NCBI GenBank assembly: GCA_947593655.1
Contig: CANQDS010000015.1
Coordinates: 1-38,180, forward strand
Source of the DNA: an uncultured Lachnospiraceae bacterium
Lineage (GTDB): Bacteria; Bacillota; Clostridia; Lachnospirales; Lachnospiraceae
Direction: 5' to 3'
Length of the DNA: 38,180 nucleotides
Below, piece by piece: positions 1,176 through 25,538 of the stretch (within the stretch, counting starts at the first letter, position 1; each line of letters starts with the position of its first letter). The notes under the pieces are model-generated. The model saw only the letters and a list, made by a program, of their open reading frames with translations. It was not told the DNA's origin and did not search any database. The position numbers and the translations under genes were made by a program.

Positions 1176-1271
1176 GGAGCCTGGTACTGTCCCGCGAACG
1201 GAGTGAGCCAATGACAGTACTGGCATCCGACAAGTCTGAGTCAGATATAGACTTATGTTGATAGAGGAGGA
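1176..1271 (+). repeat. Leader repeat, copy 1 (upstream of the antitoxin gene)
   Basis: First of three near-identical elements of about 95 nt (others at 12191-12287 and 25444-25538). It begins about 25 nt after the predicted transcription start and ends with the AGGAGG that serves the antitoxin gene. Predicted hairpins: P1 pairs CTGGTACTGTC (1181-1191) with GACAGTACTGG (1213-1223); P2 is TCTGAGTCAGA (1235-1245); P3 pairs 1246-1252 with 1257-1263 and is imperfect in this copy. The P1 arms are identical in all three copies, and most differences fall in the P1 loop. Confidence 0.85.
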
Positions 1272-1278
1272 ATGGTTT

Positions 1279-1605
1279 ATGAGCGAACTGTCTGTTATGG
1301 GTGTTATGAGATCCATCGTTCCCATTACCCGCTTCAATAAAGGCGAGGCCAACCGGATTTTTGATGAGGTGGCATCCAGCGGTACGAAGATTGTGATGAA
1401 AAACAATCGTCCGGCCTGTGTGTTAATGTCTCCAGATCAGTATGAGTCCCTGATGGAGATGGTTTCTGATTATCTTTTGCAGGAAGAAGCAGAAAACAGG
1501 ATGGCACATTATGATCCAGGCACATCCCTGTCCCAGGAGGATATGATGAAGGAACTGGGGATTGCCGAGTCCGATTTGGATGATATAGAGGTAGAAATCG
1601 AATAA
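1279..1605 (+). CDS. Antitoxin of the Phd/YefM (RelB-like) type
   Basis: A 108-residue protein whose first ~60 residues (PITRFNKGEANRIFDEVA, then KIVMKNNRPACVLMSPDQYE) show the Phd/YefM antitoxin pattern: a DNA-binding N-terminal fold followed by an acidic tail (DLDDIEVEIE) expected to wrap the toxin. ATG 1279 is chosen because GAGGAGG (1264-1270) is 8 nt upstream; the ATG at 1255 lies before that site and the ATG at 1272 is out of frame. The toxin gene follows 12 nt after the stop. The antitoxin, alone or with the toxin, probably represses its own promoter through the inverted repeat around the -10. Confidence 0.82.
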   Translation: MSELSVMGVMRSIVPITRFNKGEANRIFDEVASSGTKIVMKNNRPACVLMSPDQYESLMEMVSDYLLQEEAENRMAHYDPGTSLSQEDMMKELGIAESDLDDIEVEIE

Positions 1606-1617
1606 GGAGCTGTGCAG

Positions 1618-1953
1618 ATGAAGTGGAAGATCGAGTACATCAATGAAGCGCAGCGGGATTTGAAGCGGCTGGATCCTTATAACCGGAAAGCAATTTTGAA
1701 AGCGATTGATCAGACGGCAGAGCGTCCGCTGCCGCCTCCGGATGGGATTCGCAAACCGCTTGGAAACCATGCCGGCTCTAAGCTGAGTGGGTATTATAAA
1801 ATCAAACTGCGCAACCTTGGCTACCGGGTTGTCTATCAGCTGGTAAGAGAGGGCGAAACCATGAGGATTATTGTGATTTCCATTCGCGATGATGAAGCTG
1901 TTTATAAAGAGGCGGAGCGAAGGATTCATGGTATGGCCGAAAAAATGCAGTAG
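1618..1953 (+). CDS. RelE/ParE-superfamily toxin (probable mRNA interferase)
   Basis: A 111-residue basic protein with the RelE-type order of elements: IEYINEAQRDLKRLDPYNRK helical start, then KPLGNHAGSKLSGYYKIKLR, GYRVVYQLV, and the C-terminal strand IVISIRDDEAVYKEAERR. RelE toxins cleave mRNA in the ribosomal A site, while ParE toxins act on gyrase; the YKIKLRNLGYRVVYQ and RDDEAVY pattern favours RelE, but the motifs alone do not settle it. ATG 1618 is preferred because AAGGAG (1604-1609) is 8 nt upstream; the GTG at 1612 is too close. The last residues KMQ and stop coincide with the right direct repeat, so the C-terminus may have been reshaped by the insertion. Only 8 nt separate its stop from the convergent aroC stop. 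Confidence 0.82.
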   Translation: MKWKIEYINEAQRDLKRLDPYNRKAILKAIDQTAERPLPPPDGIRKPLGNHAGSKLSGYYKIKLRNLGYRVVYQLVREGETMRIIVISIRDDEAVYKEAERRIHGMAEKMQ

Positions 1954-1971
1954 TCCTCTGCTTACCTGCGG
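1942..1971 (+). repeat. Right imperfect direct repeat flanking the toxin-antitoxin segment
   Basis: Partner of 1031-1060, 911 bp away in the same orientation. It overlaps the toxin stop codon and the end of aroC. Confidence 0.65.
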
Positions 1972-3065
1972 TAGAAACCGGCGATCCCGTCTAGCTTTGC
2001 GGTCATATTGGAAAGCAGGGCGTCTAAGACCGTAATGGCGGTCATGGCTTCGACAACAACGACGGCGCGCGGCACGATCACCGGATCGTGGCGTCCTTTA
2101 ATGCGGATCTCGATTTCTTCGCCCGTCCGGCTGACGGTCTGCTGTGCGGCGGAAATCGACGGCGTCGGCTTAAACGCCGCGCGGAGAACAAGCGGGGCAC
2201 CGTCGCTCATACCGCCGAGCGTTCCGCCGGAGTGGTTCGTTTTCTTCTCAATGGAGCCGTCCGCGCTTCTGCCGAACGCATCGTTATTGGTCAGGCCGGT
2301 CGCGCGGGCGGCGGCAAAACCGTCCCCGATCTCAAAACCTTTCACGGCGCCGATCGAGAAGATGGCTTTCGCCAGATTGGCGTCGAGTTTTTCAAAAACC
2401 GGATCTCCGAGCCCGGCCGGAAGGCCGTTTACCACGCACTCCACGACACCGCCGGAAGAATTGTTTGCGGCAAGGCATTCGTTTAAGTAGGCTTCGGCTT
2501 CGGCCGCCGCCTTCTCATCCGGCATGTTTAAGGCGTTTCTGCCGATGGCGTCTGCATCAAAACGCGCCCGGTCGATGCTTACAGGGCCGACCGCGCATAC
2601 ATAAGACAGCAGCGTGATCCCGAGTTCGTTTAGGATTTTTGCGGCGATCGCGCCGCCCGCAACGCGTCCGATCGTTTCCCGCGCGGACGAACGTCCGCCG
2701 CCGCGGTAATCGCGGAAGCCGTATTTCTGGTCAAACGGGTAATCCGCGTGCCCCGGACGGTAACAGGAAGCGATCTCGCTGTAATCGTGGGAGCGCTGAT
2801 CCGTATTTAAGACGGTCATTGCGATCGGCGTTCCGGTGGTCTTTCCCTCGAAGATCCCGGAGAGGATCTCCACGCTGTCCGCTTCTTTCCGCTGTGTGGT
2901 AAAACGGGACTGTCCCGGCTTCCGGCGGTCTAAATAACTCTGAATGTCCGCTTCGGACAGAGGCAGCCCGGCCGGGCATCCGTCCACAACGACGCCGATG
3001 CCTTTTCCGTGGGATTCCCCCCATGTTGTGATTCGAAACAGGTTTCCAAATGAAGATCCGGCCAT
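1962..3065 (-). CDS. aroC: Chorismate synthase
   Basis: A 367-residue protein that converts 5-enolpyruvylshikimate-3-phosphate to chorismate, the last shared step of aromatic amino acid and folate synthesis, using reduced FMN. Signature stretches are visible: FGNLFRITTWGESHGKGIGV at the N-terminus, RPGHADYPFDQKYGFRDYRG, GGRSSARETIGRVAGGAIA, and the C-terminal RHDPVIVPRAVVVVEAM. Length is normal for the short bacterial form. On the minus strand the ATG is preceded by GGAGGG. It stands alone rather than in a shikimate cluster and converges on the toxin gene with almost no intergenic space. Confidence 0.96.
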   Translation of the reverse strand: MAGSSFGNLFRITTWGESHGKGIGVVVDGCPAGLPLSEADIQSYLDRRKPGQSRFTTQRKEADSVEILSGIFEGKTTGTPIAMTVLNTDQRSHDYSEIASCYRPGHADYPFDQKYGFRDYRGGGRSSARETIGRVAGGAIAAKILNELGITLLSYVCAVGPVSIDRARFDADAIGRNALNMPDEKAAAEAEAYLNECLAANNSSGGVVECVVNGLPAGLGDPVFEKLDANLAKAIFSIGAVKGFEIGDGFAAARATGLTNNDAFGRSADGSIEKKTNHSGGTLGGMSDGAPLVLRAAFKPTPSISAAQQTVSRTGEEIEIRIKGRHDPVIVPRAVVVVEAMTAITVLDALLSNMTAKLDGIAGFYRR

Positions 3066-3137
3066 ATTGTTTCCCTCCTGCTGGTGTGTTATTCTTGGTT
3101 ATGGAATCCGGCTCATTTACACTTTGCCGTGATTCTA

Positions 3138-3167
3138 ATTATACGGAAACACAAGTTGAATAGTCAA
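3138..3167 (-). promoter_or_regulatory. Probable aroC promoter
   Basis: Read on the minus strand: -35 TTGACT (3167-3162), 18-bp spacer, -10 TATAAT (3143-3138), about 70 nt before the aroC start. Confidence 0.65.
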
Positions 3168-3188
3168 GAAAGTTATGATATATTTTTA

Positions 3189-3506
3189 GTAACAGATCAG
3201 CCAGCCGGAAGCCGATGCAGAAAATGATGCTTGCATCAATCTGCTGCATTGCTTTCCGGCTGAGGGAACGCCCCTTTATGAGCAAAGGTGGCGCGAGTAA
3301 CAGTTGGTACAGGACTTTGCATTTGTTGCAAAGTCCGTAAGAATGTGTAAATTTTGCCAAGTGGGAATCCGGCTCTTTGCCGAAGGCAAACTTTAAATGA
3401 GCCGGATTCCGTAACTATGAAGCCGAAGGCTGAATAGTTACAGGCGTGAAAGCGCCGGAGAGCGCGTCAGCGCGACTTTGCGAATGGGCGTGGGCTGAGC
3501 TGTTAC
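3189..3506 (-). repeat. Composite hairpin element, locus A (interrupted single unit)
   Basis: Read on the minus strand, this is one core unit of the family seen at 6614-7082 and 27763-28148. It starts GTAACAGCTCAGCC, continues through CGCCCATTCGCAAAG, and ends in a cap hairpin with a TGCAAGCAT loop and GGCTGATCTGTTAC. Its outer ends form an inverted repeat (GTAACAG at 3189, CTGTTAC ending at 3506). The core is interrupted at about 3291-3441 by extra hairpins: GGACTTTGC/GCAAAGTCC (3312-3336), GGAATCCGGCTC/GAGCCGGATTCC (3364-3409), and GTAACTAT/ATAGTTAC (3410-3441). No credible protein is encoded here; the short ORFs are by-products of the repeats. Confidence 0.75.
3311..3341 (-). repeat. 31-bp dispersed hairpin repeat, copy 1
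   Basis: On the minus strand it reads CTTACGGACTTTGCA, then CAAATGCAAAGTCCT. It matches 37572-37602 (plus strand) over 31 bp with four visible differences, all in the central part. Confidence 0.6.
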
Positions 3507-3646
3507 GTTTTTTAATAACAGAGTTACTGTTCACAGCAGGTTATGGGGTCTGCGAACAGTAGCTGATCAGCCAGCCTGCGGGCGGCAGAGAACGCGCATC
3601 GGCGTAATTTTGCAGCCGACGCGGCGGGAAATGGGGGGAACGCGTT
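3507..3646. other. Intergenic stretch upstream of the GH13 gene
   Basis: It holds an inverted repeat ACTGTTC / GAACAGT (3526-3532 and 3554-3560) and a further short GC-rich inverted repeat around 3596-3622. No convincing promoter was found for the following gene, although a GGGGGG purine run just before 3647 can act as its ribosome site. Confidence 0.4.
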
Positions 3647-5410
3647 ATGGAATTTAACGGTGTTTATCATCAGGCAAGCGACAATTACTGTTATCCGATC
3701 AATGATGAGGAACTGATCATCAATATCAAGACCGGATACGATGTCAGGGAAGTCAATATTATCAAGGGGGATCCGTTTGAAGCCGGGATTTTAGGCGGAG
3801 GCGAACAGTGGAACGGGGAGAAGGAAGCCATTGTTTTTAAGAAGCGCCTGAAAAACCAGCTCTGGTGGACGACGACGGTCCGCCCGGAATACAAGCGTCT
3901 GAAATATTATTTTGAATTGATCACGGACGAAGAGCACTGGTTTTATTTTGAGGACGGATTTGTCAGCAACGAGCAGTTCAATCTGGAGGGTCGGAGCCGC
4001 CAGTGCTTCGTGTTCCCGTGGATGAATCCGGCCGATGTCGTGGCGTCGCCGAAGTGGGTAAACGATACGGTCTGGTATCAGATCTTTCCGGACCGTTTCT
4101 GCAACGGGGATCCTTCGATCGATCCGCCGGGTGTGGTTCCGTGGCGGAATAAAGGCTCCGTGCAGAACGAAGAGAGTTTCGGCGGGGATTTTGCGGGGAT
4201 CATCCAAAAGCTGGACTATCTGAAAGATCTCGGGATCACGGGGCTTTATCTGACGCCGATCAACGAGTCGCCGTCCAGCCATAAATACGATACGACGGAC
4301 TATACGAAGATCGATCCGCGGTTCGGAGACGAGGAGGTTTTCCGGCAGCTGATCAAAGAGGCGCATGAGCGCGGGATCCGCGTGATGCTCGACGGCGTTT
4401 TCAACCATTGCGGATATTATTTCAAACCGTGGCAGGATGTGTTAAAAAACGGGCCGGATTCGGAATATTTCGACTGGTTCATGATCAACGAATGGCCGTT
4501 TGCCGGGGACGGGAGCGCGGCCAGAAAGAAGCAGTTTTATACGTTTGCGTTCTACGACTGGATGCCGAAGTTAAATACGAATAATCCGAAGGTACGGAAG
4601 TATTTTATCGATATCTGCGCCAACTGGGTGGAAAATTACGGGATCGACGGCTTGCGTCTGGATGTGGCGAACGAGCTTTCCCACCGGTTCTGCAAGGAAC
4701 TGCATACCCGTTTAAAGGAGATCAACCCGGAGATCTATATTCTGGGGGAGATCTGGCACAATGCGATGCCGTGGCTGCGCGGGGACGAGTTTGACGCGGT
4801 GATGAATTACCCGCTGGGGCAGAGCATCAAGGATTTCTGGATCGATAAGAGCCTGACGAACGAAGATTTCGAGTATACGGTCAACCGCTGTTATACTGCT
4901 TATATGCAGCAGACGAACGACGTATTGTTCAATCTGCTGGATTCCCACGATACGAAGCGGCTGCGTTCGGATGTGAAGAATCTGGACGAGTATTTTGCGC
5001 AGCTTGCGGTCCTGTTTGCGATGCCGGGAAGCCCGTGCATCTATTACGGAACGGAGATCGCGATGGAGGGCGGATATGATCCGGACTGCCGCAGATGTAT
5101 GCCGTGGGAGGATATTGACGCCGGAAGGTACAATGAGCGGATCCGGATCGTTTCCCAGCTGCTTCATCTGCGGAAGCAGGAGCCGCTGCTGAAAAGCCGC
5201 AATTTCCATTTTCCGCATGATTATGCGCAGTATCCGCGCGTGATCCAGTTCCAGAAAGTGGGATGGATGGACAATTATATCGAAGTGATCATTAACTGTT
5301 CCGATGAGGATATCGAAGTGCCGCAGAACGGGGAAATCCTGCTTCAGCGCCACTGTATCGATACCACGCTGCTGAAGAACGGAATCCTGATCCGGCGGAT
5401 CAAAGAATGA
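3647..5410 (+). CDS. GH13 alpha-glucan hydrolase (neopullulanase/cyclomaltodextrinase type)
   Basis: A 587-residue cytoplasmic enzyme (no signal peptide). Residues 1-125 form an N-terminal beta domain like CBM34, and the catalytic barrel starts at about 137 (WVNDTVWYQIFPDRFCNGD, the family's typical opening). Conserved GH13 regions: DGVFNHCG (249-256), GLRLDVANE with nucleophile D339, GEIWH with acid/base E368, and LDSHDT with D435 as transition-state stabiliser. Enzymes of this subfamily hydrolyse maltodextrins, cyclodextrins or pullulan. Length and domain order are standard. No maltodextrin transporter lies nearby. tgt follows 17 nt downstream, so the two are probably co-transcribed. Confidence 0.92.
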   Translation: MEFNGVYHQASDNYCYPINDEELIINIKTGYDVREVNIIKGDPFEAGILGGGEQWNGEKEAIVFKKRLKNQLWWTTTVRPEYKRLKYYFELITDEEHWFYFEDGFVSNEQFNLEGRSRQCFVFPWMNPADVVASPKWVNDTVWYQIFPDRFCNGDPSIDPPGVVPWRNKGSVQNEESFGGDFAGIIQKLDYLKDLGITGLYLTPINESPSSHKYDTTDYTKIDPRFGDEEVFRQLIKEAHERGIRVMLDGVFNHCGYYFKPWQDVLKNGPDSEYFDWFMINEWPFAGDGSAARKKQFYTFAFYDWMPKLNTNNPKVRKYFIDICANWVENYGIDGLRLDVANELSHRFCKELHTRLKEINPEIYILGEIWHNAMPWLRGDEFDAVMNYPLGQSIKDFWIDKSLTNEDFEYTVNRCYTAYMQQTNDVLFNLLDSHDTKRLRSDVKNLDEYFAQLAVLFAMPGSPCIYYGTEIAMEGGYDPDCRRCMPWEDIDAGRYNERIRIVSQLLHLRKQEPLLKSRNFHFPHDYAQYPRVIQFQKVGWMDNYIEVIINCSDEDIEVPQNGEILLQRHCIDTTLLKNGILIRRIKE

Positions 5411-5427
5411 GAAAGTGAACGGGAATT

Positions 5428-6573
5428 ATGGCAGAATATAAATTGTTGAAACGGGAGGGGCGGGCGAAGCGCGCCGTATTCCATACCGTACACGGCGATA
5501 TCCAGACGCCGGTATTTATGAACGTCGGGACGGCCGGTGCGATCAAAGGCGCGGTTTCCACAGAGGATCTAAAGGAGATCGGATGCCAGGTGCAGCTTTC
5601 CAATACCTACCACCTTCATGTGCGGACCGGGGATCGGCTGATCCGGGAAATGGGCGGCCTGCACCGTTTTATGGTCTGGGATCGGCCGATCCTTACGGAT
5701 TCCGGCGGATTTCAGGTGTTTTCCCTTGCCAATCTCCGCCGGATCAAGGAAGAAGGCGTGTATTTCCACTCCCACGTCGACGGGGCGAAAATTTTCATGG
5801 GGCCGGAGGAAAGTATGCAGATCCAGTCCAATCTGGGTTCTACGATCGCTATGGCGTTTGACGAATGTCCTTCCAGCACGGCGGAGCGAGGCTATGTCGA
5901 GGCTTCGGTGAACCGGACGACGCGCTGGCTTGCGCGCTGCAAGAAAGAGATGGAGCGCTTAAACAGCCTTGAGGATACGCTAAACCGCGGCCAGCTGCTG
6001 TTCGGGATCAATCAGGGCGCGGTATACGAGGATATCCGGATCGCCCATGCAGAAGCGATCGCGGAGCTTGACCTTGACGGCTATGCGGTCGGAGGGCTTG
6101 CGGTCGGGGAAACGCACGAGGAGATGTACCGGATCCTCGATGAGACGGTGCCGCATCTTCCTGTGGATAAACCGACGTATCTGATGGGCGTCGGGACGCC
6201 GGCCAATATCTTAGAGGGCGTGGAGCGCGGCGTGGACTTTTTCGACTGCGTGTATCCGAGCCGCAACGGGCGGCACGGGCATGTGTATACGAATGAAGGA
6301 AAACGCAACCTGTTTAATAAGAAGTATGAAAAGGACATGCGTCCGATCGAAGAAGGGTGCGGCTGCCCGGCGTGCCAGAAGTACAGCCGCGCTTATATCC
6401 GCCATCTGTTGAAAGCGGGAGAGATGCTGGGGATGCGGCTCTGTGTTCTGCATAACCTTTATTTTTACAACCATATGATGGAGGAGATCCGGGACGCGCT
6501 GGATCAGGGAAAATTCTCGTCTTATAAGGACGAAAAACTCTATCGGATGGGGCAGCTTGAACGGGAGAAGTAA
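5428..6573 (+). CDS. tgt: tRNA-guanine transglycosylase (queuine tRNA-ribosyltransferase)
   Basis: A 381-residue enzyme that swaps guanine-34 of GUN-anticodon tRNAs for the queuosine precursor preQ1. DSGGFQVFSLA carries D91, and DCVYPSRNGRHG carries D273, matching the two catalytic aspartates of the family. The zinc site is CGCPAC (C311, C313, C316) with a histidine near 342 (LHNLYFYNHMM). The ATG at 5428 has only a weak upstream purine run, so translation may depend on coupling with the GH13 gene. In many bacteria tgt directly precedes yajC; here 586 bp of repeats separate them. Confidence 0.96.
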   Translation: MAEYKLLKREGRAKRAVFHTVHGDIQTPVFMNVGTAGAIKGAVSTEDLKEIGCQVQLSNTYHLHVRTGDRLIREMGGLHRFMVWDRPILTDSGGFQVFSLANLRRIKEEGVYFHSHVDGAKIFMGPEESMQIQSNLGSTIAMAFDECPSSTAERGYVEASVNRTTRWLARCKKEMERLNSLEDTLNRGQLLFGINQGAVYEDIRIAHAEAIAELDLDGYAVGGLAVGETHEEMYRILDETVPHLPVDKPTYLMGVGTPANILEGVERGVDFFDCVYPSRNGRHGHVYTNEGKRNLFNKKYEKDMRPIEEGCGCPACQKYSRAYIRHLLKAGEMLGMRLCVLHNLYFYNHMMEEIRDALDQGKFSSYKDEKLYRMGQLEREK

Positions 6574-6576
6574 CGT

Positions 6577-6608
6577 CCTTTTGCTCATAAGAGGGCTCCG
6601 GCTGAACT
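6577..6608 (+). repeat. Truncated composite hairpin unit before the array
   Basis: TTTGCTCATAA followed by GGCTCCGGCTGAAC resembles the right end of a core unit. Its GGCTGAAC pairs with GTTCAGCC of the next unit (6615-6622), giving a junction hairpin. Confidence 0.45.
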
Positions 6609-6613
6609 TTTGG

Positions 6614-7082
6614 CAGTTCAGCCCACGCCCATTCGCAAAGTCGCGCTAACGCGCTCTCCGCTGCTGCCGCAGCTACCTTTGCTCATAAAATGGGCGTTTT
6701 GTGCCATTAGACGGTAACAGTTCAGCCCACGCCCATTCGCAAAGTCGCGCTGACGCGCTTTCCGCTGCTGCCGCAGCTACCTTTGCTCATAAAATGGGCG
6801 TTTTGTGCCATTAGACTGTAACAGTTCAGCCCACGCCCATTCGCAAAGTCGCGCTAACGCGCTCTCCGCTGCTGCCGCAGCTACCTTTGCTCATAAATGG
6901 GCGTTTTGTGCCATTAGACTGTAACAGTTCAGCCCACGCCCATTCGCAAAGTCGCGCTGACGCGCTCTCCGCTGCTGCCGCAGCTGCCTTTGCTCATAAA
7001 TGGGCGTTCCCTCAGCCAGCTTTCGATAGGTGCCGTTCCTGCAAGCATGACGGCGCCTATCGGAAACTGGCTGGCTGAACTG
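6614..7082 (+). repeat. Composite hairpin element, locus B: four-unit tandem array plus cap hairpin
   Basis: Four units begin with TTCAGCCCACGCCCATTCGC at 6617, 6721, 6825 and 6928, giving periods of 104, 104 and 103 bp. In each unit CGCCCATT pairs with AATGGGCG, CGCAAAG lies opposite CTTTGCTC, and inner hairpins GCG/CGC and GCTGC/GCAGC form. The last unit ends GGGCGTTCCCTCAGCC and runs into a cap hairpin (7011-7078, loop containing GCAAGCATG). The array is bounded by CAGTTCAGCC (6614) and GGCTGAACTG (ending 7082). There are no unique spacers, so it is not a CRISPR, and no credible protein is encoded in this 586-bp gap. Confidence 0.85.
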
Positions 7083-7096
7083 TTGAGAAAAAAAGC

Positions 7097-7125
7097 TTGC
7101 CATAAGCAGGTAAGTTGTGTAAAAT
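7097..7125 (+). promoter_or_regulatory. Probable yajC promoter
   Basis: -35 TTGCCA (7097-7102), 17-bp spacer, -10 TAAAAT (7120-7125), immediately after the repeat array and about 28 nt before the predicted transcription start reaches the yajC ribosome site. Confidence 0.6.
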
Positions 7126-7159
7126 ACCAATAGTATTTTGGAGTTAGGAGGAAGAACAA

Positions 7160-7501
7160 ATGTACGCAATTTTGGCAGAAGGCGATGCCGCAGGAACCGG
7201 CGGATTACTCGGCGGCGGAATGATCGGTATGCTGATCTGGATCGTAGTGCTGTTCGGCGTGATGTATTTTCTGATGATCCGTCCGCAGAAGAAAGAGCAG
7301 CAGAAGAAAGAACTGATGTTAAAGGAAGTTGCGGTCGGCGATACCGTGCTGACCACCAGCGGATTTTACGGAACGGTCATCGATATCGCGGATGAGGATG
7401 ATATGGTTATCGTGGAGTTCGGCAGCAACAGAAACTGCCGCATCCCGATGCAGAAGGCGGCCATATCCGCGGTAGAGAAGCCGGAGGATGCACAGGCATA
7501 G
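7160..7501 (+). CDS. yajC: Preprotein translocase subunit YajC
   Basis: A 113-residue single-span membrane protein that associates with SecDF and the SecYEG translocon. A glycine-rich N-terminus (GTGGLLGGG) leads into one transmembrane helix at about residues 19-40, followed by the family signature MIRPQKKEQQKK and a cytosolic domain with VGDTVLTTSGFYGTVIDI. Length and layout are standard. GGAGG at 7148-7152 gives a good ribosome site. The repeat array separates it from its customary partner tgt, and it seems to have its own promoter. leuB begins 91 nt downstream after a GC-rich hairpin. Confidence 0.95.
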   Translation: MYAILAEGDAAGTGGLLGGGMIGMLIWIVVLFGVMYFLMIRPQKKEQQKKELMLKEVAVGDTVLTTSGFYGTVIDIADEDDMVIVEFGSNRNCRIPMQKAAISAVEKPEDAQA

Positions 7502-7523
7502 TAGGAGAACATGAGACAGACTG

Positions 7524-7552
7524 CGCCGCCCTTGGAAAGAGGGGCGGCGTTC
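7524..7552 (+). terminator. GC-rich hairpin between yajC and leuB (weak terminator or attenuator)
   Basis: CGCCGCCC (7524-7531) pairs perfectly with GGGCGGCG (7542-7549) over a 10-nt loop. It is followed only by TTCTATG, so termination would be partial; read-through into leuB is possible. Confidence 0.5.
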
Positions 7553-7592
7553 TATGAATAGGAAATCATGACAAAGAAAGAAGGATGAAAAG

Positions 7593-8693: not shown

Positions 8694-8745
8694 GCCGGAC
8701 AAAGAATAACAGATTTCATTTATGATAGAAAGGAAGAACAACCTC

Positions 8746-12147: not shown

Positions 12148-12174
12148 TTGACAAATTTTTCAGAATTGTATAAG
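12148..12174 (+). promoter_or_regulatory. serC promoter, abutting the ilvB stop codon
   Basis: TTGACA (12148-12153) is a consensus -35 directly after the ilvB TAG. The -10 is either TATAAG (12169-12174, 15-bp spacer) or TAAGTT (12171-12176, 17-bp spacer). The leader repeat starts 15-20 nt further on. Confidence 0.65.
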
Positions 12175-12190: not shown

Positions 12191-12287
12191 GGAGCCTGGT
12201 ACTGTCCCGCGAACGGAGTGAACGGATGACAGTACTGGCATCCGACAGTCTGAGTCAGATATAAAACTTATGTTTATAAGAGGAGGA
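12191..12287 (+). repeat. Leader repeat, copy 2 (upstream of serC)
   Basis: Same element as 1176-1271. The P1 arms are identical to the other copies; the P1 loop carries GTGAACGGAT. The third hairpin (TATAAAAC / GTTTATA) has one bulged A. The copy ends in AGGAGGA, which is the serC ribosome site. Confidence 0.85.
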
Positions 12288-12296: not shown

Positions 12297-13379
12297 ATGA
12301 GCAGAGTTTACAATTTTTCCGCGGGACCTGCAGTACTGCCGGAAGAGGTGCTGAAGGAAGCGGCGGATGAGATGATGGATTACCGGGGCTGCGGCATGTC
12401 CGTAATGGAGATGAGCCACCGTTCCAAGGTATATGATACGATCATTAAGGAAGCGGAACAGGATCTGCGCGATCTGATGAAGATCCCGGACAATTATAAG
12501 GTGCTGTTTTTACAGGGCGGGGCGTCCCAGCAGTTTGCGGCAATCCCGATGAACCTGATGAAGAACCGCAAGGCCGGATATATCGTCACCGGACAGTGGG
12601 CGAAGAAGGCTTATCAGGAAGCGAAGATTTACGGGGAGGCGGTGGAACTGGCGTCTTCCGCAGATCAGACGTTTTCCTATATCCCGGACTGCTCCGATCT
12701 GGACATTCCGGACGATCTGGACTATGTTTACATCTGTGAAAACAATACGATCTACGGCACGAAGTACAAGACGCTGCCGAATACCAAGGGAAAGACGCTG
12801 GTAGCGGACGTTTCTTCCTGCTTCTTATCGGAGCCGGTGGACGTGGAGAAATACGGCGTGATCTACGGCGGCGTGCAGAAGAACATCGGCCCGGCCGGCG
12901 TGGTGATCGTGATCATCCGCGAGGATCTGATCACGGACGACGTGCTTCCGGGAACCCCGACCATGTTAAAATACAAGATCCATGCGGATAATGATTCGCT
13001 TTACAATACGCCGCCGTGCTACGGCATTTACATCTGCGGCAAAGTGTTCAAATGGCTGAAGAAGATGGGCGGGCTGGAAGTCATGAAGCAGCGCAATATC
13101 GAAAAGGCGCAGATTCTTTATGATTTTCTCGACCAGAGCAGCCTCTTTAAAGGAACCGTGCGCAAAGAGGACCGTTCTTTGATGAACGTGCCGTTTGTAA
13201 CAGGAAACGACGAGCTGGATGCGAAGTTTGTCAAGGAAGCGAAGGAAGCGGGCTTTGAGAACCTGAAAGGCCACCGTACCGTAGGCGGCATGAGGGCTTC
13301 CATCTACAATGCAATGCCGAAAGAGGGCGTGGAGAAGCTGGTCGCTTTCATGAAGAAGTTTGAAGAGGAAAATGCATAA
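12297..13379 (+). CDS. serC: Phosphoserine aminotransferase
   Basis: A 360-residue PLP enzyme converting 3-phosphohydroxypyruvate and glutamate to phosphoserine, the second step of serine synthesis. The N-terminal VYNFSAGPAVLPEEVL is the family opening, and the Schiff-base lysine is K195 in GGVQKNIGPAG. GHRTVGGMRASIYNAM near the C-terminus is conserved. ATG 12297 is chosen because AGGAGG (12281-12286) is 10 nt upstream; an in-frame ATG at 12270 lies inside the leader repeat before that site. serA follows 26 nt later, so the two enzymes are co-transcribed, and the leader repeat would influence both. Confidence 0.96.
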   Translation: MSRVYNFSAGPAVLPEEVLKEAADEMMDYRGCGMSVMEMSHRSKVYDTIIKEAEQDLRDLMKIPDNYKVLFLQGGASQQFAAIPMNLMKNRKAGYIVTGQWAKKAYQEAKIYGEAVELASSADQTFSYIPDCSDLDIPDDLDYVYICENNTIYGTKYKTLPNTKGKTLVADVSSCFLSEPVDVEKYGVIYGGVQKNIGPAGVVIVIIREDLITDDVLPGTPTMLKYKIHADNDSLYNTPPCYGIYICGKVFKWLKKMGGLEVMKQRNIEKAQILYDFLDQSSLFKGTVRKEDRSLMNVPFVTGNDELDAKFVKEAKEAGFENLKGHRTVGGMRASIYNAMPKEGVEKLVAFMKKFEEENA

Positions 13380-16798: not shown

Positions 16799-16862
16799 GG
16801 GGCTGTCGCTTTAACGAATGTGAGCATATCAATGAGAGTTCGTGAAGCGGCAGCTCCTTTTT
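16799..16862. terminator. Terminator between mscS and larC (convergent genes)
   Basis: The arm at 16799-16811 (GGGGCTGTCGCTT) pairs with 16845-16857 (AAGCGGCAGCTCC) through G-U wobbles, with a further inner AACGAA/TTCGT pairing, followed by TTTTT on the plus strand. It can serve mscS and perhaps larC from the other side. Confidence 0.65.
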
Positions 16863-16885
16863 ATATACGAAAGATTTTTACACGG

Positions 16886-18100: not shown

Positions 18101-18133
18101 GGAACCCTCCTCAATACAAATCTTCTCTCCCCT

Positions 18134-18162
18134 ATTATAAAGGAAATTTCCTGCTTTGTCTC
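18134..18162 (-). promoter_or_regulatory. larC promoter with a palindrome in its spacer
   Basis: On the minus strand: -35 GAGACA (weak), 17-bp spacer, -10 TATAAT (18139-18134). The spacer contains the perfect 12-bp palindrome AGGAAATTTCCT (18141-18152), well placed for a repressor operator. Confidence 0.6.
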
Positions 18163-18208
18163 GTGAATATGCACAAAAAAAGGAAACTATTTTTGGACAA
18201 TCGGTTTC

Positions 18209-18237
18209 TTGAAGAAAAATTAAGTTTATGTTAAAAT
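18209..18237 (+). promoter_or_regulatory. tetR promoter
   Basis: -35 TTGAAG (18209-18214), 17-bp spacer, -10 TAAAAT (18232-18237), about 40 nt before the tetR ribosome site. Confidence 0.65.
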
Positions 18238-18284
18238 AATGGAAAACGAACGAATGAAAACAGTTTCCATGAAAGGATGATGAC

Positions 18285-18863: not shown

Positions 18864-18878
18864 TCATAAAGATGGGGA

Positions 18879-18901
18879 ATTCCTTACCGGGTGTAAGGAA
18901 T
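18879..18901. promoter_or_regulatory. Palindrome between tetR and the sugar operon (candidate operator)
   Basis: ATTCCTTAC (18879-18887) and GTAAGGAAT (18893-18901) form a perfect inverted repeat around a 5-nt centre. There is no T-run, so it is not an intrinsic terminator. Its size and site suit a TetR operator. A clear -35/-10 pair for the operon was not found nearby. Confidence 0.5.
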
Positions 18902-18950
18902 AGGAACCATAAATATATTTAGGAGATCATAATTAACAGGAGGGAACAAC

Positions 18951-20444
18951 ATGGAGGAAAAATCAAAAGTAATTTTCGGCAATCCGATCCCGGAGAAGGA
19001 TTACAGGAATGCCGTCCGCTCCAAGAAAAAGTACATCCGGAAATTCGGAGATGATTCCGAGGCGGATTACGAGGTCAGCATCCGGAAGAATCCGTATATC
19101 GGGGATGCACTCGGCGTGCAGGATGTGCTTCTGGGGGAGGACAGCGTTACTGCGGAAGCGGAAGGGGCGCAGGAGTTCGACCGGAAGAAAGGGATCATCG
19201 TCGGGAACATCCGCATGGGATTCGGCCATTACCGCATCAGCATGGCGATGGCGTCCGCCGCGAAATCCATGGGCTATACGCCGTACTGGATGGATTTAAA
19301 CGGCTATCCGCAGACGACCTGCACCAAGGTGATCAGCGCACAGAACGATCTTTATTCGCTGGGATCGCGTATGTCGAAAAATCCGGTGTTTAACCGGCTG
19401 GTATGGGAACCGATGAATTATGAAGGTTTCCGCGCGTTAAGCTATAACGCTTCCGACCAGAAGAACGCGGAGCTGATGGCTCCGGTCTACCGCAACGTGC
19501 CGAAGGAGATCCCGGTGATCGGGACGCATGTCTGGCCGGCGCAGGCAGCGGTTCATGCCGGCATGCAATACGTGGTGAACGCGATTCCGGACAATTGGCC
19601 GATGGCGCTGCATCTGGCGGAAGGAAGCGTACACACGATCCAGTGCCATAACTCTTATATGGGCTACCGCATTTTGAACGGCATGAACAAAGACAAGGTC
19701 AACAAGCCGATGGAAGCGGACAGTCTGGTCTATACCGGCCATTATATCGACCACGAGCTGGTCAGCAATCTGGAAAGCGACTGCGAGGCGCGGATGAAGC
19801 GGAAAGCGGAGAAGAAACCGATGCGCTTTTTACTGACGATCGGCGGGGCGGGCGCGCAGAAAGAGATCTTTGCGGCGATCATCCGTCATCTGATCCCGTA
19901 CATCCGGAGGAAAGAAGCGGCGCTGTATGTCAACGTCGGGGACTACCGGAACGTCTGGGAGGAGCTGCTGGCGGAAATCCCGCAGATGAAGGGGATCACC
20001 CGGGAGCACTTCAACGACTGGGAGAATACGAAGGCTTTTGCGGAAGCGGTGCTGGACGATTCCAACAAGGTGATCGGGATCCACGGCTTCTGGCATGAGA
20101 ATATCTTTGAAGCCGTTTACTGCACCAACCTTCTGATGCGCAGCTGCGACGTGCTTGTGACAAAGCCGAGCGAGCTGGCGTTTTATCCGGTGCCGAAGCT
20201 GTTCATCAAGCGCGTTGGAAAGCATGAGATGTGGGGGGCGATCCACTCCGCGGAGATGGGCGACGGGACGCTGGAATGCCGGGATATCCCGCATACGATC
20301 CAGATGATCGATCTTTTCTTAAATGAAGATTTAATTTTAAATGATATGTGCAGGAATATCATGACCAATAAGTCGATTGGATTATACGATGGGGCGTATA
20401 AAGTGGTAGAACTTGCAATGGGGTTAAGGAGGAATAACAAATGA
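18951..20444 (+). CDS. GT-B-like protein of unknown function in an alpha-galactoside operon
   Basis: A 497-residue soluble protein that I cannot assign to a characterised family. After a charged N-terminal extension (1-80), residues 81-120 (GIIVGNIRMGFGHYRISMAM) resemble the glycine/histidine loop of GT28-type enzymes such as MurG and diacylglycerol glycosyltransferases. A second alpha/beta domain starts at 292 with RFLLTIGGAGAQ, and VLVTKPSELAFYPVPKLF (401-418) resembles the donor-binding region of the same enzymes. So a two-domain GT-B fold is likely, but activity is inference. The start has AGGAGGG 8 nt upstream. Its stop overlaps the transporter start by 4 bp (ATGA), implying translational coupling with a symporter and an alpha-galactosidase. 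Confidence 0.6.
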   Translation: MEEKSKVIFGNPIPEKDYRNAVRSKKKYIRKFGDDSEADYEVSIRKNPYIGDALGVQDVLLGEDSVTAEAEGAQEFDRKKGIIVGNIRMGFGHYRISMAMASAAKSMGYTPYWMDLNGYPQTTCTKVISAQNDLYSLGSRMSKNPVFNRLVWEPMNYEGFRALSYNASDQKNAELMAPVYRNVPKEIPVIGTHVWPAQAAVHAGMQYVVNAIPDNWPMALHLAEGSVHTIQCHNSYMGYRILNGMNKDKVNKPMEADSLVYTGHYIDHELVSNLESDCEARMKRKAEKKPMRFLLTIGGAGAQKEIFAAIIRHLIPYIRRKEAALYVNVGDYRNVWEELLAEIPQMKGITREHFNDWENTKAFAEAVLDDSNKVIGIHGFWHENIFEAVYCTNLLMRSCDVLVTKPSELAFYPVPKLFIKRVGKHEMWGAIHSAEMGDGTLECRDIPHTIQMIDLFLNEDLILNDMCRNIMTNKSIGLYDGAYKVVELAMGLRRNNK

Positions 20445-21850
20445 AACTGTCTTTGAGGGAGAAGATTTCTTACGGGCTGGGAGCGGTAGGCAAGGATATG
20501 GTCTATATGCTTTCGGCAAGCTATATTTTGTACTATTATCAGGATATTCTGGGGGTGAACGCGATCGCGATGGGCGTGATCCTTCTGATCGCGCGTGTCT
20601 TCGATGCGTTTAACGATCCGATCATGGGCGTGCTGGTTGCCAAAACGCGTACCCGCTGGGGCAAATTCCGTCCGTGGCTGTTGATCGGAAGGATCGTGAA
20701 TGCGGTGATCTTATTTATTATGTTTTCCGCACCGCCTGCTCTGGACGGCGGCGGGCTGGTCGCTTATGCGGCGGTTACCTATATCCTCTGGGGCGTGACT
20801 TATACGATGATGGATATTCCGTACTGGTCGATGATCCCGGCGTTTACGGAAGGCGGGAAAGAGCGCGAGAACCTTTCCACGCTGGCGAGGAGCTGCGCGG
20901 GCGTCGGTTCTGCGCTGATCACGATCATCACCATGATCTGCGTGCGCGCGCTGGGTTCGTATGCGGGGGATGACTGGGAGCGTGTCGGTTTCCGCTGGTT
21001 TGCGCTGATCATCGCCGTGCTCTTTGTGGTGCTGGTTGCCATTACCTGTCTCAACATCAAGGAAAAATCGACCGTCAACGTGGATTCCCCGTCGGTGGGC
21101 GATATGTTTAGGGCGCTGATCTCCAACGATCAGGCGATGGCGGTCGTTATCACGATCGTGCTGATCAACTGCGCGGTTTATATTACGTCGAACCTCGTGA
21201 TCTATTTCTTCAAGTACGATTTCGGAGGGGCGGACTGGTTCAACAGCTATACGCTGTTTAACACCTTCGGCGGAGCGGTGCAGATTCTCTCCATGATGAT
21301 CCTGTTCCCGCTGCTCAGGAAATTCTTAAGCGCGGTTACGGTATTTTATGTGAGCTTTACGATGGCGGTCATTGGGTATGCATCCCTTCTGATCCTGTCC
21401 TTTACCAATATGTCGAGCATCTTCCTTCTGTTCATTCCGGGCTTTCTGATCTTTGCGGCGAACGGAATGCTGACAGTGCTGACGACCGTTTTCCTTGCAA
21501 ATACGGTAGATTACGGCGAACTGAAGAACAACCGCAGGGATGAGAGCGTGATCTTTTCCATGCAGACCTTTGTCGTAAAACTGGCTTCCGGCGTGGCGGC
21601 GCTGATCACGGCGGTCAGCCTCAGTATTTTCCACATCAGCGACGACACCAGCAATACGTCGGCGGCGGCGGACGCCGTTGCGGGCAGCTCCGTAGTCGGC
21701 CTGCGCCTGACGATGACCGTGATCCCGATCGTTGTGCTGCTGATCGCGATCCTTTTGTTCCATAAGAAATTCATTCTGACGGAGGCAAAAGTAGAGGAGA
21801 TCGCACAGACGCTGAAGGCAAAGAGGAAGAAAGACGGAGGGCGCGTATGA
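20441..21850 (+). CDS. GPH-family sugar:cation symporter (MelB/major facilitator type)
   Basis: A 469-residue integral membrane protein with about 12 hydrophobic helices. The N-terminal LREKISYGLGAVGKDMVYML and the loop ARVFDAFNDPIMGVLVAKTRTRWGKFRPWLL are signatures of the glycoside-pentoside-hexuronide:cation symporters, where the aspartates of the second helix bind the coupling ion. The central TMMDIPYWSMIPAFT and the C-terminal ANTVDYGELKNNRRDESVIFSMQTF are also typical. The neighbour GH36 enzyme points to alpha-galactosides such as melibiose or raffinose as cargo. Both ends overlap neighbouring genes by 4 bp, and AAGGAGG stands before the start. Confidence 0.92.
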   Translation: MKLSLREKISYGLGAVGKDMVYMLSASYILYYYQDILGVNAIAMGVILLIARVFDAFNDPIMGVLVAKTRTRWGKFRPWLLIGRIVNAVILFIMFSAPPALDGGGLVAYAAVTYILWGVTYTMMDIPYWSMIPAFTEGGKERENLSTLARSCAGVGSALITIITMICVRALGSYAGDDWERVGFRWFALIIAVLFVVLVAITCLNIKEKSTVNVDSPSVGDMFRALISNDQAMAVVITIVLINCAVYITSNLVIYFFKYDFGGADWFNSYTLFNTFGGAVQILSMMILFPLLRKFLSAVTVFYVSFTMAVIGYASLLILSFTNMSSIFLLFIPGFLIFAANGMLTVLTTVFLANTVDYGELKNNRRDESVIFSMQTFVVKLASGVAALITAVSLSIFHISDDTSNTSAAADAVAGSSVVGLRLTMTVIPIVVLLIAILLFHKKFILTEAKVEEIAQTLKAKRKKDGGRV

Positions 21851-24192
21851 TCCGGCAGGCTGGCGCTGTCTGGATCCTGGATACGGCGCATACCACATAC
21901 TGTTTCCGGAAACTGCCGTCCGGTCATCTGGAACATCTGTACTACGGGGAGCGGATCGTGCTGGAGAGCGAAAAAGAAGCGGAGGCGCTTGCGGAGAAAC
22001 ATGCGTTTGCGCCGGGAAATACCAATCCCTACAGCGCGCAGTTTCCGCAGTTTTCCTTAGAGGATATGCGTCTGGAAATGTCGTCCTACGGAAAAGGCGA
22101 TATCCGCGAACCGTTTCTGGAGATTCTGCATGAGGACGGGAGCCTGACTTCGGATTTCCTGTTCAACCATGCCGAAATCTGCGACGGAAAACAGCCGCTG
22201 GCGTCGCTTCCGTCGTCCTACGCCGGAGACGGCGGGGTGCAGGAACTGGTTCTTGTGTTAAAAGATGCGGGGTACGGGCTGACGCTGGAACTGCATTACG
22301 GCGTGTTCGAGGAAACGGACGTTATCACGCGTTCCGCGAAGCTGATCAATTCCGGGATTGCCGCGATCCGTCTGCTGCGCCTCTGCAGCGCACAGGTGGA
22401 TTTTGAAACCGACGGTTTTATCTTTTCCACGTTTAACGGAAGCTGGGCGCGGGAAATGCAGCGGCACGATACGAAGATCACGGCGGGGAAGCATGTCAAC
22501 GCTTCCTACACCGGAAGCTCTTCGAACCGCGCCAATCCGTTTGTCATGCTCTCGCGGGAGGAAACCGGCGAAGATGCAGGCCCGTGCTACGGGTTTAACC
22601 TGATCTACAGCGGCAACCACTATGAGGCGGTGGAAGTCAACGGTTACGGGAAAACGCGCATCGTAACGGGAATCAATCCGCAGTCGTTCTGCTTCCTTTT
22701 GGAGGCGGGAGAGGAATTTGAGGCGCCGGAAGCCGTGATGACGTATTCTTCAGGCGGATTTAACGGCATGAGCCGGAATATGCACGCGTTTGTGCGAAAC
22801 AGCATCGTCCGCGGCGAGTGGAAGGACCGGGTGCGTCCGGTGCTGTTAAACAGCTGGGAAGCCGCTTATTTCCAGATCAGCGAGAGCCGCCTCTTAAAAC
22901 TGGCGAAAGCGGGAAAAGATGTGGGGATCGAGCTTTTTGTCATGGACGACGGCTGGTTCGGGACGCGGGACGACGATACCCAGTCGCTGGGCGACTGGGT
23001 AGTGAATCCGAAGAAGCTGCCGGGCGGGCTTTCCGGGCTTTCGGATAAGATCCATGCGCTGGGAATGGAGTTCGGCATCTGGGTGGAGCCGGAAATGGTC
23101 AATGTCAACAGCCGCCTTTACCGCAGCCGTCCGGACTGGACGATGGAGATTCCGGGAAAGCCGCATACGGAAGGGCGAAACCAGAGGATCCTGGATCTGG
23201 CGAATCCGGAAGTGGTTGACGACCGGATCGAGCAGATGACGAAAGTTTTTTCCTCTGCGGATATTTCCTATGTGAAATGGGACATGAACCGGATCTTTTC
23301 GGATTATTATTCGCAGTACCTTCCGCCGGAGCGGCAGCAGGAGACCGCGCACCGCTATATTCTGGGGCTGTACCGGATGATGAAAACGCTGACGGAGCGT
23401 TTTCCGAAGATCCTGTTTGAAGGCTGCGCGGCGGGCGGCAACCGGTTCGACCTCGGGATATTGTGCTATTTCCCGCAGATCTGGGGCAGCGACGATACGG
23501 ACGCCGTTTATCGCGTGAACGGGCAGACCGGCTACAGCTACGGTTATCCATTGTCAACGGTCAGCGCGCATGTATCCGCGTGCCCGAACCATCAGACGCT
23601 GCGGATCACGCCAATTGCCACACGCTTTGCCGTTGCGGCGTTCGGCATCTGCGGCTATGAATGCAATCTCTGCGATATGAAAAAGGAAGAGCTGGAGGAG
23701 ATCCGCACGCAGATCGCGCTTTACAAAGAGTGGCGGGAAGTGCTGCAGAAGGGAACCTTTTACCGGGGACGGAACGGTAATATCCATGAGTGGACCTGTG
23801 TTTCGCCGGATAAGAAGAGAGCGGTCGGGATGCTGATGCAGGAGCTGGTGCAGCCGAATACGCAGTTCGAACAGTATCAGGCGAAGGGACTTGATCCGGA
23901 AAAGAAGTATCATTTCTTTAATCGTGATTTAAGATATAACATCAAAGAGTTCGGAGATCTGGTCAATACGGTGGCTCCGGTTCATGTGAAGCAGGATTCC
24001 CTCCTGCACAACGTACTCGCGAAATTCGTGACGATGCCGGGGGAGAAAGAAGACTACGCGGTATCGGGAGCAGTGCTGATGAATGGCGGAGTAAAATTAA
24101 AACAGGCTTTTGCAGCCACGGGATACAGCGAAGAAGTGCGCTATTTCCAGGATTTCAGCGCACGGCTCTATTTCATGGAAGAAGCGGAATAG
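21847..24192 (+). CDS. Alpha-galactosidase, GH36
   Basis: A 781-residue cytoplasmic enzyme hydrolysing terminal alpha-1,6-galactose of melibiose and raffinose-type sugars. An N-terminal beta-supersandwich (to about 330) precedes the barrel, which starts near VLLNSWEAAYFQ. The nucleophile is D479 in YVKWDMNR and the acid/base is D549 in WGSDDTDA; their 70-residue spacing is that of the well-studied Geobacillus AgaA enzyme (D478/D548). Other hallmarks are FVMDDGWFGTRDDD, GIWVEPEMVN, and EGCAAGGNRFD. It is about 50 residues longer than many relatives. The ATG overlaps the symporter stop by 4 bp. A strong hairpin follows the stop. Confidence 0.95.
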   Translation: MIRQAGAVWILDTAHTTYCFRKLPSGHLEHLYYGERIVLESEKEAEALAEKHAFAPGNTNPYSAQFPQFSLEDMRLEMSSYGKGDIREPFLEILHEDGSLTSDFLFNHAEICDGKQPLASLPSSYAGDGGVQELVLVLKDAGYGLTLELHYGVFEETDVITRSAKLINSGIAAIRLLRLCSAQVDFETDGFIFSTFNGSWAREMQRHDTKITAGKHVNASYTGSSSNRANPFVMLSREETGEDAGPCYGFNLIYSGNHYEAVEVNGYGKTRIVTGINPQSFCFLLEAGEEFEAPEAVMTYSSGGFNGMSRNMHAFVRNSIVRGEWKDRVRPVLLNSWEAAYFQISESRLLKLAKAGKDVGIELFVMDDGWFGTRDDDTQSLGDWVVNPKKLPGGLSGLSDKIHALGMEFGIWVEPEMVNVNSRLYRSRPDWTMEIPGKPHTEGRNQRILDLANPEVVDDRIEQMTKVFSSADISYVKWDMNRIFSDYYSQYLPPERQQETAHRYILGLYRMMKTLTERFPKILFEGCAAGGNRFDLGILCYFPQIWGSDDTDAVYRVNGQTGYSYGYPLSTVSAHVSACPNHQTLRITPIATRFAVAAFGICGYECNLCDMKKEELEEIRTQIALYKEWREVLQKGTFYRGRNGNIHEWTCVSPDKKRAVGMLMQELVQPNTQFEQYQAKGLDPEKKYHFFNRDLRYNIKEFGDLVNTVAPVHVKQDSLLHNVLAKFVTMPGEKEDYAVSGAVLMNGGVKLKQAFAATGYSEEVRYFQDFSARLYFMEEAE

Positions 24193-24204
24193 AAAAACAG
24201 GGAT

Positions 24205-24257
24205 AAAATACCTCTTTTTGGACATGCTATTTGAAAAAACAAAAAGGGGTATTTTTT
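24205..24257 (+). terminator. Long AT-rich hairpin after the GH36 gene, covering the ldh ribosome site
   Basis: Positions 24205-24220 pair with 24240-24255 in a 16-bp stem with one G-U pair and a 19-nt loop. The 3' arm contains AAAAAGGGG, the probable Shine-Dalgarno of the next gene, and ends in a T-run (24252-24257). It looks like a terminator for the sugar operon, but it could also hide the downstream ribosome site. Confidence 0.65.
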
Positions 24258-24259
24258 AT

Positions 24260-25249
24260 ATGAAGATTTTATTTTATGACGCCAAACCCTATGATATCGA
24301 GTCGTTTGAGAGGGAGCGGGAGGGCTATCCGGACATGGAGATCGAATATCTGAATACGGATATCTCGGTGCGGACGGCGGCGCTGGCAGAAGGATATGAC
24401 GCCGTCTGCGCTTTTGTCAGTTCGGAACTGAATGCGGATGTGTTAAAGAAACTTGCCTCCTGCGGTGTGAAGCTGCTTTTGATGCGCTGCGCGGGATTTA
24501 ATAATGTGGATACCAAAGCGGCCGCGGAACTGGGAATTACGATCCTGCGCGTGCCGGGTTATTCGCCGGAAGCGGTAGCGGAGCATGCGATGACGCTGGC
24601 GATGGCGGTCAACCGCCGCATCCACAAGGAGTATGTCAAGGTACGGGAGAACAATTTCAGCCTGGTCGGCCTGATGGGGTTAAATCTGTGCGGGCGGACG
24701 GCAGGCATCATCGGAACCGGAAAGATCGGCGCGGCGATGGCAAAGATCTGCCATGGCTTCGGGATGCATGTGATCGCCTATGACAAGTATCCGAACCCGT
24801 CGCTGGACTTTATCGAATACCGGAATCTGGAGGAAGTGCTTTCCGGCAGCGACCTGATCTCGCTGCACTGTCCGCTGACGATCGAGAATTACCACATGAT
24901 CAACAAGGAGAGCATCGCCCGGATGAAAAACGACGTCATCTTTATCAATACGTCGCGCGGGGAGCTGGTCGATACGGACGACCTGATCGCAAGCATTCTA
25001 AACCACAAGTTCCACGGGGTAGGACTGGATGTCTACGAAGAGGAGCGCGACAATGTTTTTGAGAACCGGGAAGATGATATTTTGGAAAACGCGGTGGTGG
25101 CGCGCCTTCTGTCGTTTCCGAATGTCATCGTGACCTCGCATCAGGCGTTCTTTACCAAGGAAGCGCTCGCCGCGATCAGCCGGACCACGCTGAAAAACGC
25201 GCAGGATTACGAAAAAGGCGCGCCGGAGAAGGAGAATCTGGTGTGCTGA
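24260..25249 (+). CDS. D-lactate dehydrogenase (D-2-hydroxyacid dehydrogenase family)
   Basis: A 329-residue NAD-dependent enzyme, most like fermentative D-lactate dehydrogenases. It opens MKILFYDAKPYDIESF, has the NAD motif GIIGTGKIGAAMAK near 150, the catalytic arginine in INTSRGELVD, a glutamate in VGLDVYEEE, and the histidine in VTSHQAFFTKEAL, a C-terminal run typical of D-LDH. The reaction reduces pyruvate to D-lactate. The start is ATG 24260: an open frame extends upstream to 24110, but that part overlaps the GH36 coding sequence and lacks similarity. The ribosome site lies within the stem described above, with 10 nt to the start. Confidence 0.9.
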   Translation: MKILFYDAKPYDIESFEREREGYPDMEIEYLNTDISVRTAALAEGYDAVCAFVSSELNADVLKKLASCGVKLLLMRCAGFNNVDTKAAAELGITILRVPGYSPEAVAEHAMTLAMAVNRRIHKEYVKVRENNFSLVGLMGLNLCGRTAGIIGTGKIGAAMAKICHGFGMHVIAYDKYPNPSLDFIEYRNLEEVLSGSDLISLHCPLTIENYHMINKESIARMKNDVIFINTSRGELVDTDDLIASILNHKFHGVGLDVYEEERDNVFENREDDILENAVVARLLSFPNVIVTSHQAFFTKEALAAISRTTLKNAQDYEKGAPEKENLVC

Positions 25250-25280
25250 TACTGATCGGACGGCTGCAGCTTTGGAGGTT

Positions 25281-25423
25281 TTCGTGAAAAACCGGCGATT
25301 AGAAATCGAAAAATTCGGGAAAAATTGGCGAGTAGAAATCGAAAAATTCGGGAAAAACTAGCAGATAGAAATTGAAAAATACGTGAAAAACTGTAGAATA
25401 AGAATTGAAAAATTCGGGAAAAA
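25281..25423 (+). repeat. 33-bp tandem repeat (four units and a partial fifth)
   Basis: Units start at 25281, 25314, 25347 and 25380, each exactly 33 bp, of the form TTCGGGAAAAA, variable middle, AGAAATYGAAAAA. A partial unit starts at 25413. Units 3 and 4 contain TTGAAA; units 1 and 2 have TCGAAA at that site. The TTGAAA of unit 4 serves as -35 for the next promoter. Confidence 0.88.
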
Positions 25424-25433
25424 GGGGTATAAT
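25405..25433 (+). promoter_or_regulatory. Promoter of the AAA ATPase gene, built partly from the tandem repeat
   Basis: -35 TTGAAA (25405-25410) in repeat unit 4, 17-bp spacer, consensus -10 TATAAT (25428-25433). The leader repeat starts 10 nt after the -10. Confidence 0.75.
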
Positions 25434-25443
25434 TATCATAGTT

Positions 25444-25538
25444 GGAGCCTGGTACTGTCCCGCGAACGAAGTGAGTGGATGACAGTACTGGCATCCGACA
25501 GTCTGAGTCAGATATAAACTTACGTTTATAGAGGAGGA
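25444..25538 (+). repeat. Leader repeat, copy 3 (upstream of the AAA ATPase gene)
   Basis: Same element as 1176-1271 and 12191-12287. The third hairpin is perfect here: TATAAAC, loop TTAC, GTTTATA, immediately before GAGGAGGA, the ribosome site of the ATPase gene. The P1 loop has GTGAGTGGAT. Confidence 0.85.

Follow-up and report, generated by a model that had tools for sequence, protein, structure and literature searches.

A repeat of approximately 90 nt, dispersed in the genome of an uncultured Lachnospiraceae bacterium, is probably a mobile, non-autonomous element with a single orientation of insertion, immediately 3' of the tetranucleotide GGAG. Most of the occupied GGAGs are cores of Shine-Dalgarno (SD) sequences, and the layout observed is GGAG, about 90 nt ending in GAGGAG, a spacer and a start codon. 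An earlier note on this DNA had considered, as one of two readings, that the repeat is mobile, prefers leaders and supplies a ribosome site; the present data support this reading, the element being located within the SD core, with a 3' end that would form a replacement SD. Insertion would convert ..AGGAG-GA-spacer-ATG into ..AGGAG-element..GAGGAG-GA-spacer-ATG; the old SD would stay upstream of the element, the gene would receive a new SD with a spacing close to the native one, and the terminal GGAG presumably serves as the SD in vivo.

The three copies that the earlier note had located in the window, i.e., the whole stretch of DNA that was analyzed (38,180 nt), were all recovered at the same positions on the plus strand upon inspection of the sequence, and their near-identity was confirmed, with copies 2 and 3 each being 92% identical to copy 1. 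In copy 1 the left GGAG (1176-1179), which we interpret as the target, i.e., the part of the split SD that remained upstream, is followed by a body of 90 nt (1180-1269) that ends in GAGGAG (1264-1269), the putative SD of a gene starting at 1279. The first hairpin (P1) of this copy spans positions 1181-1223, with arms at 1181-1191 and 1213-1223. Copy 2 is composed of the target GGAG (12191-12194) and a body of 91 nt (12195-12285), where the terminal GAGGAG (12280-12285) is the putative SD of a gene starting at 12297, while in copy 3 the target GGAG (25444-25447) precedes a body of 89 nt (25448-25536), the terminal GAGGAG (25531-25536) of which is the putative SD of a gene starting at 25546. The downstream genes are those named previously: a Phd/YefM-type antitoxin, a class-V aminotransferase (serC-like) and an AAA_14/DUF4143 ATPase, respectively, all on the plus strand. 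In addition, the window contains tandem arrays at 6614-7008 and 27763-28083, the units of which measure approximately 104 and 153 nt and have sequence in common; stretches near these arrays match Rfam Clostridiales-1 at 33.6 and 29.6 bits, below the cutoff of 48.

Gene context of the repeat family

The source genome is a metagenome-assembled genome (MAG) with 186 contigs that total 3.09 Mb, and because it is only 87% complete, further copies of the element may exist. Within this genome, BLAST yields 42 matches to the hairpin-rich, approximately 90-nt element, with E values of 1e-31 to 1e-44 for the window copies, i.e., a resemblance far above chance. A covariance model trained on 34 copies (33 from the source genome and one from locus L044) identifies 60 copies in the source genome (E 0.01), with scores between 119 bits for the strongest and 31 bits (E 0.001) for the weakest match, several of the weak ones being partial. 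The termini of the element are CCTGGTACTG.. at the 5' end and ..TATAGAGGAG at the 3' end. Two copies on contig C66 (L039:128-221 and 1697-1791) have near-identical flanks and are located before two similar neighboring ORFs, probably as the result of a gene duplication in which the element was included.

The 3' end reads GGAG in 51 of the 60 copies. In 42 copies (42/60, or 42/51 of those with the terminal GGAG) this motif is followed, on the same strand and after 3-14 nt, by ATG, GTG or TTG opening an ORF of at least 50 codons or one that runs off the piece of sequence. The start codons are ATG in 36 cases, GTG in 4 and TTG in 2, the observed distances from the terminal GGAG are 3-13 nt, and the 3' end of these 42 copies is a near-constant TAGAGGAG. 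Among other GGAGs of the same genome, in the examined sequence away from the element, 246 of 1204 (20%) are found in the same context (binomial P 4e-21 for 42/51 against this background); for GGAGs outside crude ORF calls, i.e., those that are roughly intergenic, the fraction is 62/137 (45%; P 6e-8). The bias for strand and leader position, which had been perceived from the three window copies, is strong genome-wide, as seen in the same-strand placement before start codons. The 18 copies that lack this placement include copies at contig ends, tandem copies, decayed copies, copies before short ORFs and a few true sites away from start codons.

The relation to promoters is different. A -10-like hexamer precedes each window copy, as the earlier note had described (by eye, TATAAT at 1139-1144, TATAAG at 12169-12174 and TATAAT at 25428-25433), but the arrangement is not general: such hexamers are found 5-45 nt upstream of 10/57 copies, while in controls displaced by 100, 200 and 300 nt the numbers are 9/54, 3/53 and 3/51, i.e., there is no clear enrichment. 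The rule that the element follows a promoter and forms a leader was therefore rejected. In 44 of the 60 copies a same-strand ORF ends between -65 and +80 nt of the left end of the element, a figure counted from the list of a rough ORF finder in which some ORFs may be spurious. Placement before start codons, combined with the lack of clear -10 enrichment, suggests that the element follows translation starts, often within operons, rather than promoters. A tandem array with a 33-nt unit (25281-25423, 4.3 copies) immediately precedes the promoter-like site of copy 3.

Among 30 of the 42 downstream ORFs that were scanned, 27 display Pfam matches to many different functions and three display none. 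The genes include those for ribosomal protein L20, subunit A of a type II topoisomerase and several tRNA synthetases, some of which are likely essential, an observation consistent with insertions being tolerated because the SD is rebuilt. Because the scanned genes are functionally unrelated, a co-regulated regulon was rejected.

The insertion point at GGAG

The tetranucleotide to the left of the 60 copies is GGAG in 36 cases, AGAG in 5, GGAA in 4 and another sequence in 15, two of the last group being contig-end copies that lack a left end. An A precedes the left GGAG in 30 of the 36 copies. The site as it would be before insertion can be seen in relatives at the rpmI-rplT junction, where the flanks of one element copy were matched in 55 of the 62 genomes of the genus (the source genome included). 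When the loci of 29 relatives were aligned, 26 were found to be without insert, all 26 carrying AGGAGGA before rplT, while the remaining three (G018, G037 and G025) harbor other inserts. Fifteen of the 55 matched genomes show, by eye, a subject overlap of exactly 5 nt between the two BLAST pieces, and on the query side each of the two overlapped stretches is AGGAG. Thus, the SD core is present once in the relatives and twice in the source genome, which places the element inside the SD.

In G034, a relative with a complete genome of which 2.0 Mb were compared, both flanks of 16 of the 60 copies are syntenic and no copy of the element was found in the sequence compared. At the orthologous start codons GGAG is found in 7 of 14 cases (determined with a script that mis-mapped three starts), compared to 37% of long ORFs. 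These numbers are compatible with SD targeting; outside the rplT site they do not prove that the target is chosen.

The earlier note had regarded flanking target-site duplications as a sign of passive insertion. A short repeat, GGAG, is indeed found on the flanks, but the left and right tetranucleotides differ in several copies. A plain target duplication is therefore not established, and drift of the left copy would explain the differences as well. At six places (contigs C134, C89, C3, C142, C39 and C63) a GGAG forms the junction between neighboring copies or remnants, which is what one would expect if a further copy inserts at the terminal GGAG of a preceding one. These data bear on the possibility that insertion is passive, without choice of site, and that only copies that rebuild an SD survive. 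Such a scenario would fit with the fact that GGAGs outside genes are often SDs in any case (the 62/137 above), and with the presence of a few copies away from start codons. The left junction is, however, GGAG in 36/60 copies and GGAG-like in most of the others, and neighboring copies or remnants are joined at GGAG; both observations point to a choice of GGAG that passive insertion leaves unexplained, and we consider this scenario very improbable. For the mobile element with a preferred target, the enrichment at SDs would be a consequence of the choice of GGAG together with the survival of those insertions that leave translation intact. The enrichment itself could be due to selection alone, and the target may be either the SD as such or simply GGAG, with selection accounting for the rest.

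Structure and possible regulatory function

Three hairpins, P1, P2 and P3, are conserved in the alignment, where paired cells amount to 94.6% and 93.0% for the two halves of P1, 82.3% for P2 and 87.7% for P3. The P1 arms (CTGGTACTGTC and GACAGTACTGG), which had been described as invariant, are the same in all three window copies but vary genome-wide; for example, one P1 pair is G-T in 18, A-T in 10 and G-C in 6 of the 34 copies. The three hairpins differ in sequence, and a C-A mismatch in P2 is kept in 33 of 34 copies. Genome-wide copies were used to build the covariance model, as had been suggested, and covariation within the genome is weak: the shuffle controls, at 32/500 for cells paired and 41/500 for pairs changed on both sides, are marginal. 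Therefore, structure in the source genome is supported chiefly by conservation, and two related copies in G146, a genome from another genus of the same family, lend some support from across genera. The z-scores of the folds are modest, from -1.3 to -2.3, for three copies folded as RNA (one of them on both strands) and two as DNA (both on both strands).

The earlier note had recognized no known riboswitch class, and the window yields no Rfam match to the element at the gathering threshold, by which known Rfam riboswitches and leaders were excluded; relaxed thresholds also yield nothing over the element. The predicted accessibility of the SD is 0.56 with the element and 0.54 without it (28 copies). 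Stop codons in all three frames are found in 47/60 copies, but also in 55% of shuffled consensus sequences, and were rejected as a feature of the element.

The alternative that the element is a cis-regulatory RNA, i.e., a riboswitch, a protein-binding leader or an attenuator that defines a regulon, where the RNA includes the flanking GGAG and copying into leaders was selected for co-regulation, is consistent with the window copies residing between the mRNA start and the start codon, with pairing of P1 in 93-95% of cells and with the G146 copies, in which P1 differs in sequence and still folds. As the reason for the placement of the element it is not supported. The downstream genes are unrelated, no Rfam family matches over the element, covariation is marginal, predicted SD accessibility is unchanged, and many copies appear to follow the stop of the upstream gene rather than a promoter. 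Furthermore, the empty site of the relatives splits the SD exactly and no copy was found in the 61 congeners searched. We therefore consider this alternative, co-regulation by copying included, to be very unlikely. A ligand-sensing leader in particular is unlikely; the element may have a regulatory side effect.

Mobilization, relatives and occurrence

In the IS200/IS605 family, similar hairpins at the left and right ends are bound by one TnpA. According to parts of PMC5934647, IS608 of this family inserts 3' of a tetranucleotide that is kept in the left flank and has its right cleavage site at the 3' end. In common with IS608 as described there, insertion of the element is 3' of a fixed tetranucleotide, which remains part of the left flank, a cleavage-type sequence is present at the right end, hairpins are located near the ends, one strand is used and inverted terminal repeats are lacking: the ends of the element, CCTGG.. 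and ..TATAGAGGAG, are not complementary upon inspection of the alignment. Different from IS608, the element is without a linked tnpA, its target GGAG coincides with the SD, its hairpins differ in sequence and the left hairpin starts 1-2 nt from the join. By inspection, following the description in parts of PMC5934647, no clear IS608-type guide, i.e., a tetranucleotide that pairs with the cleavage site, was seen 5' of the hairpin bases at P1, P2 or P3. Because no partner enzyme was found in the genomes searched, no guide is visible and the hairpins differ, we describe the element as working like an IS200/IS605- or REP-type passenger and do not assign it to these families.

REPs are palindromes of 20-40 bp tagged with GTAG or CGTC (parts of PMC3733652). 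Similar to REPs and REPINs with their RAYT transposases, the element is short, structured, extragenic and present in high copy number, with a tetranucleotide beside a hairpin and with tandem copies, but it is about 90 nt long, its tag is GGAG, and wherever a gene start was found it is oriented with the next gene. No RAYT (TnpA-REP) transposase was found in the genomes searched (the source genome, G100, G101 and G146). The element may also be compared with BOX, RUP, SPRITE and other prokaryotic MITEs, which are small, structured, dispersed repeats that enter mRNAs. In parts of PMC3049150, BOX and RUP of pneumococcus are described with terminal inverted repeats and target duplications, SPRITE as enriched near the 3' ends of genes, and insertion into the SD is not among the features given there. 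A DDE-type MITE was rejected because inverted terminal repeats are lacking and the left and right tetranucleotides differ in several copies. The main text of a MITE review (PMC10969869) contains neither "Shine-Dalgarno" nor "ribosome binding", and no mobile element inserted in SDs was recognized from titles and the beginnings of abstracts in the openly licensed PMC literature; on this literature the novelty of an SD-inserting element is provisional.

As to the mechanism, the element could move as single-stranded DNA by means of an IS200/IS605- or REP-like HUH transposase acting in trans, a route that we regard as plausible, if short of being the expected one. No mobilizing enzyme with matching ends was found in searches with PF01797 (Y1 transposase) of the source genome, G100, G101 and G146, an absence that says little because the source genome is an incomplete MAG. 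PF01797 has one match in the source genome, a remnant with two stops at L042 (contig C67) with neighbors that look by eye like surface-polysaccharide genes; G101 has three matches, G146 one and G100 none. A BLAST comparison of the element with the Y1 loci of G101 and G146 yielded only chance matches of 14-16 nt. Half-copies as the ends of a longer autonomous element were dismissed, as the 21 copies viewed offered no evidence for them. The missing HUH partner is in line with a different route, i.e., an SD-inserted mobile element that moves by another recombinase or via RNA and cDNA, perhaps addressed by pairing with the SD. This route would also fit with the distance of 1-2 nt between P1 and the join, which leaves no space for an IS608-type guide, and with the dissimilarity of P1, P2 and P3. 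The architecture, however, matches the scheme described for IS608 in parts of PMC5934647, and the enzyme search covered the HUH class; we find a non-HUH route rather unlikely. A broader proposal, put forward tentatively and with some doubt, is that the element represents a class of SD-addressed mobile elements, found across genera and with an exchangeable P1, that rebuild the SD on insertion, colonize the leaders of vital genes and use an enzyme that has yet to be tied to a known transposase family.

In compact genomes mobile DNA must avoid killing its host, and this element apparently spreads among genes while leaving them translatable. Residing in, and repairing, the translation-start sequence would explain its entry into the leaders of L20, topoisomerase and tRNA synthetase genes. 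Because a folded RNA of about 90 nt is added to dozens of leaders, natural pairs of leaders, one with the element and one lacking it, would make the influence of leader structure on translation measurable. Should base pairing determine the target, the element would be a natural SD-addressed insertion system.

Outside the source genome, the covariance model (used with stricter filters and with part of the candidates scored) found no match in the 61 other genomes of the genus and, under the same settings, one divergent copy among 391 other genomes sampled from the order. Two rabbit-gut Lachnospiraceae MAGs carry four and two copies, with identities to window copy 3 that reach 98.9%; contigs in MAGs may be misbinned. 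The flanks of the copies in these two MAGs, G100 and G101, match none of the source-genome pieces compared, which make up part of that genome. Both G146 copies are located before start codons and share with the element the P2 start CATCCGAC, and G102 carries a degenerate match before a start codon. Plasmids and phages gave no blastn match to the element, and viral contigs gave none to five exact or gapped element patterns.

A different dispersed repeat, composed of two hairpins, is found in G018 and G037 of the same genus (28 and 10 BLAST matches; L094, L095 and L129-L148). It is arranged in tandem in places and sits just 5' of SDs, with an SD-like motif and a start codon after 11 of 24 module ends (22 loci). 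One repeat of this type is located at the same rpmI-rplT junction as the element copy of the source genome, while the rpmI-rplT locus of G025 (L097), a genome in which the G018/G037 repeat has no match, contains a third, unrelated insert.
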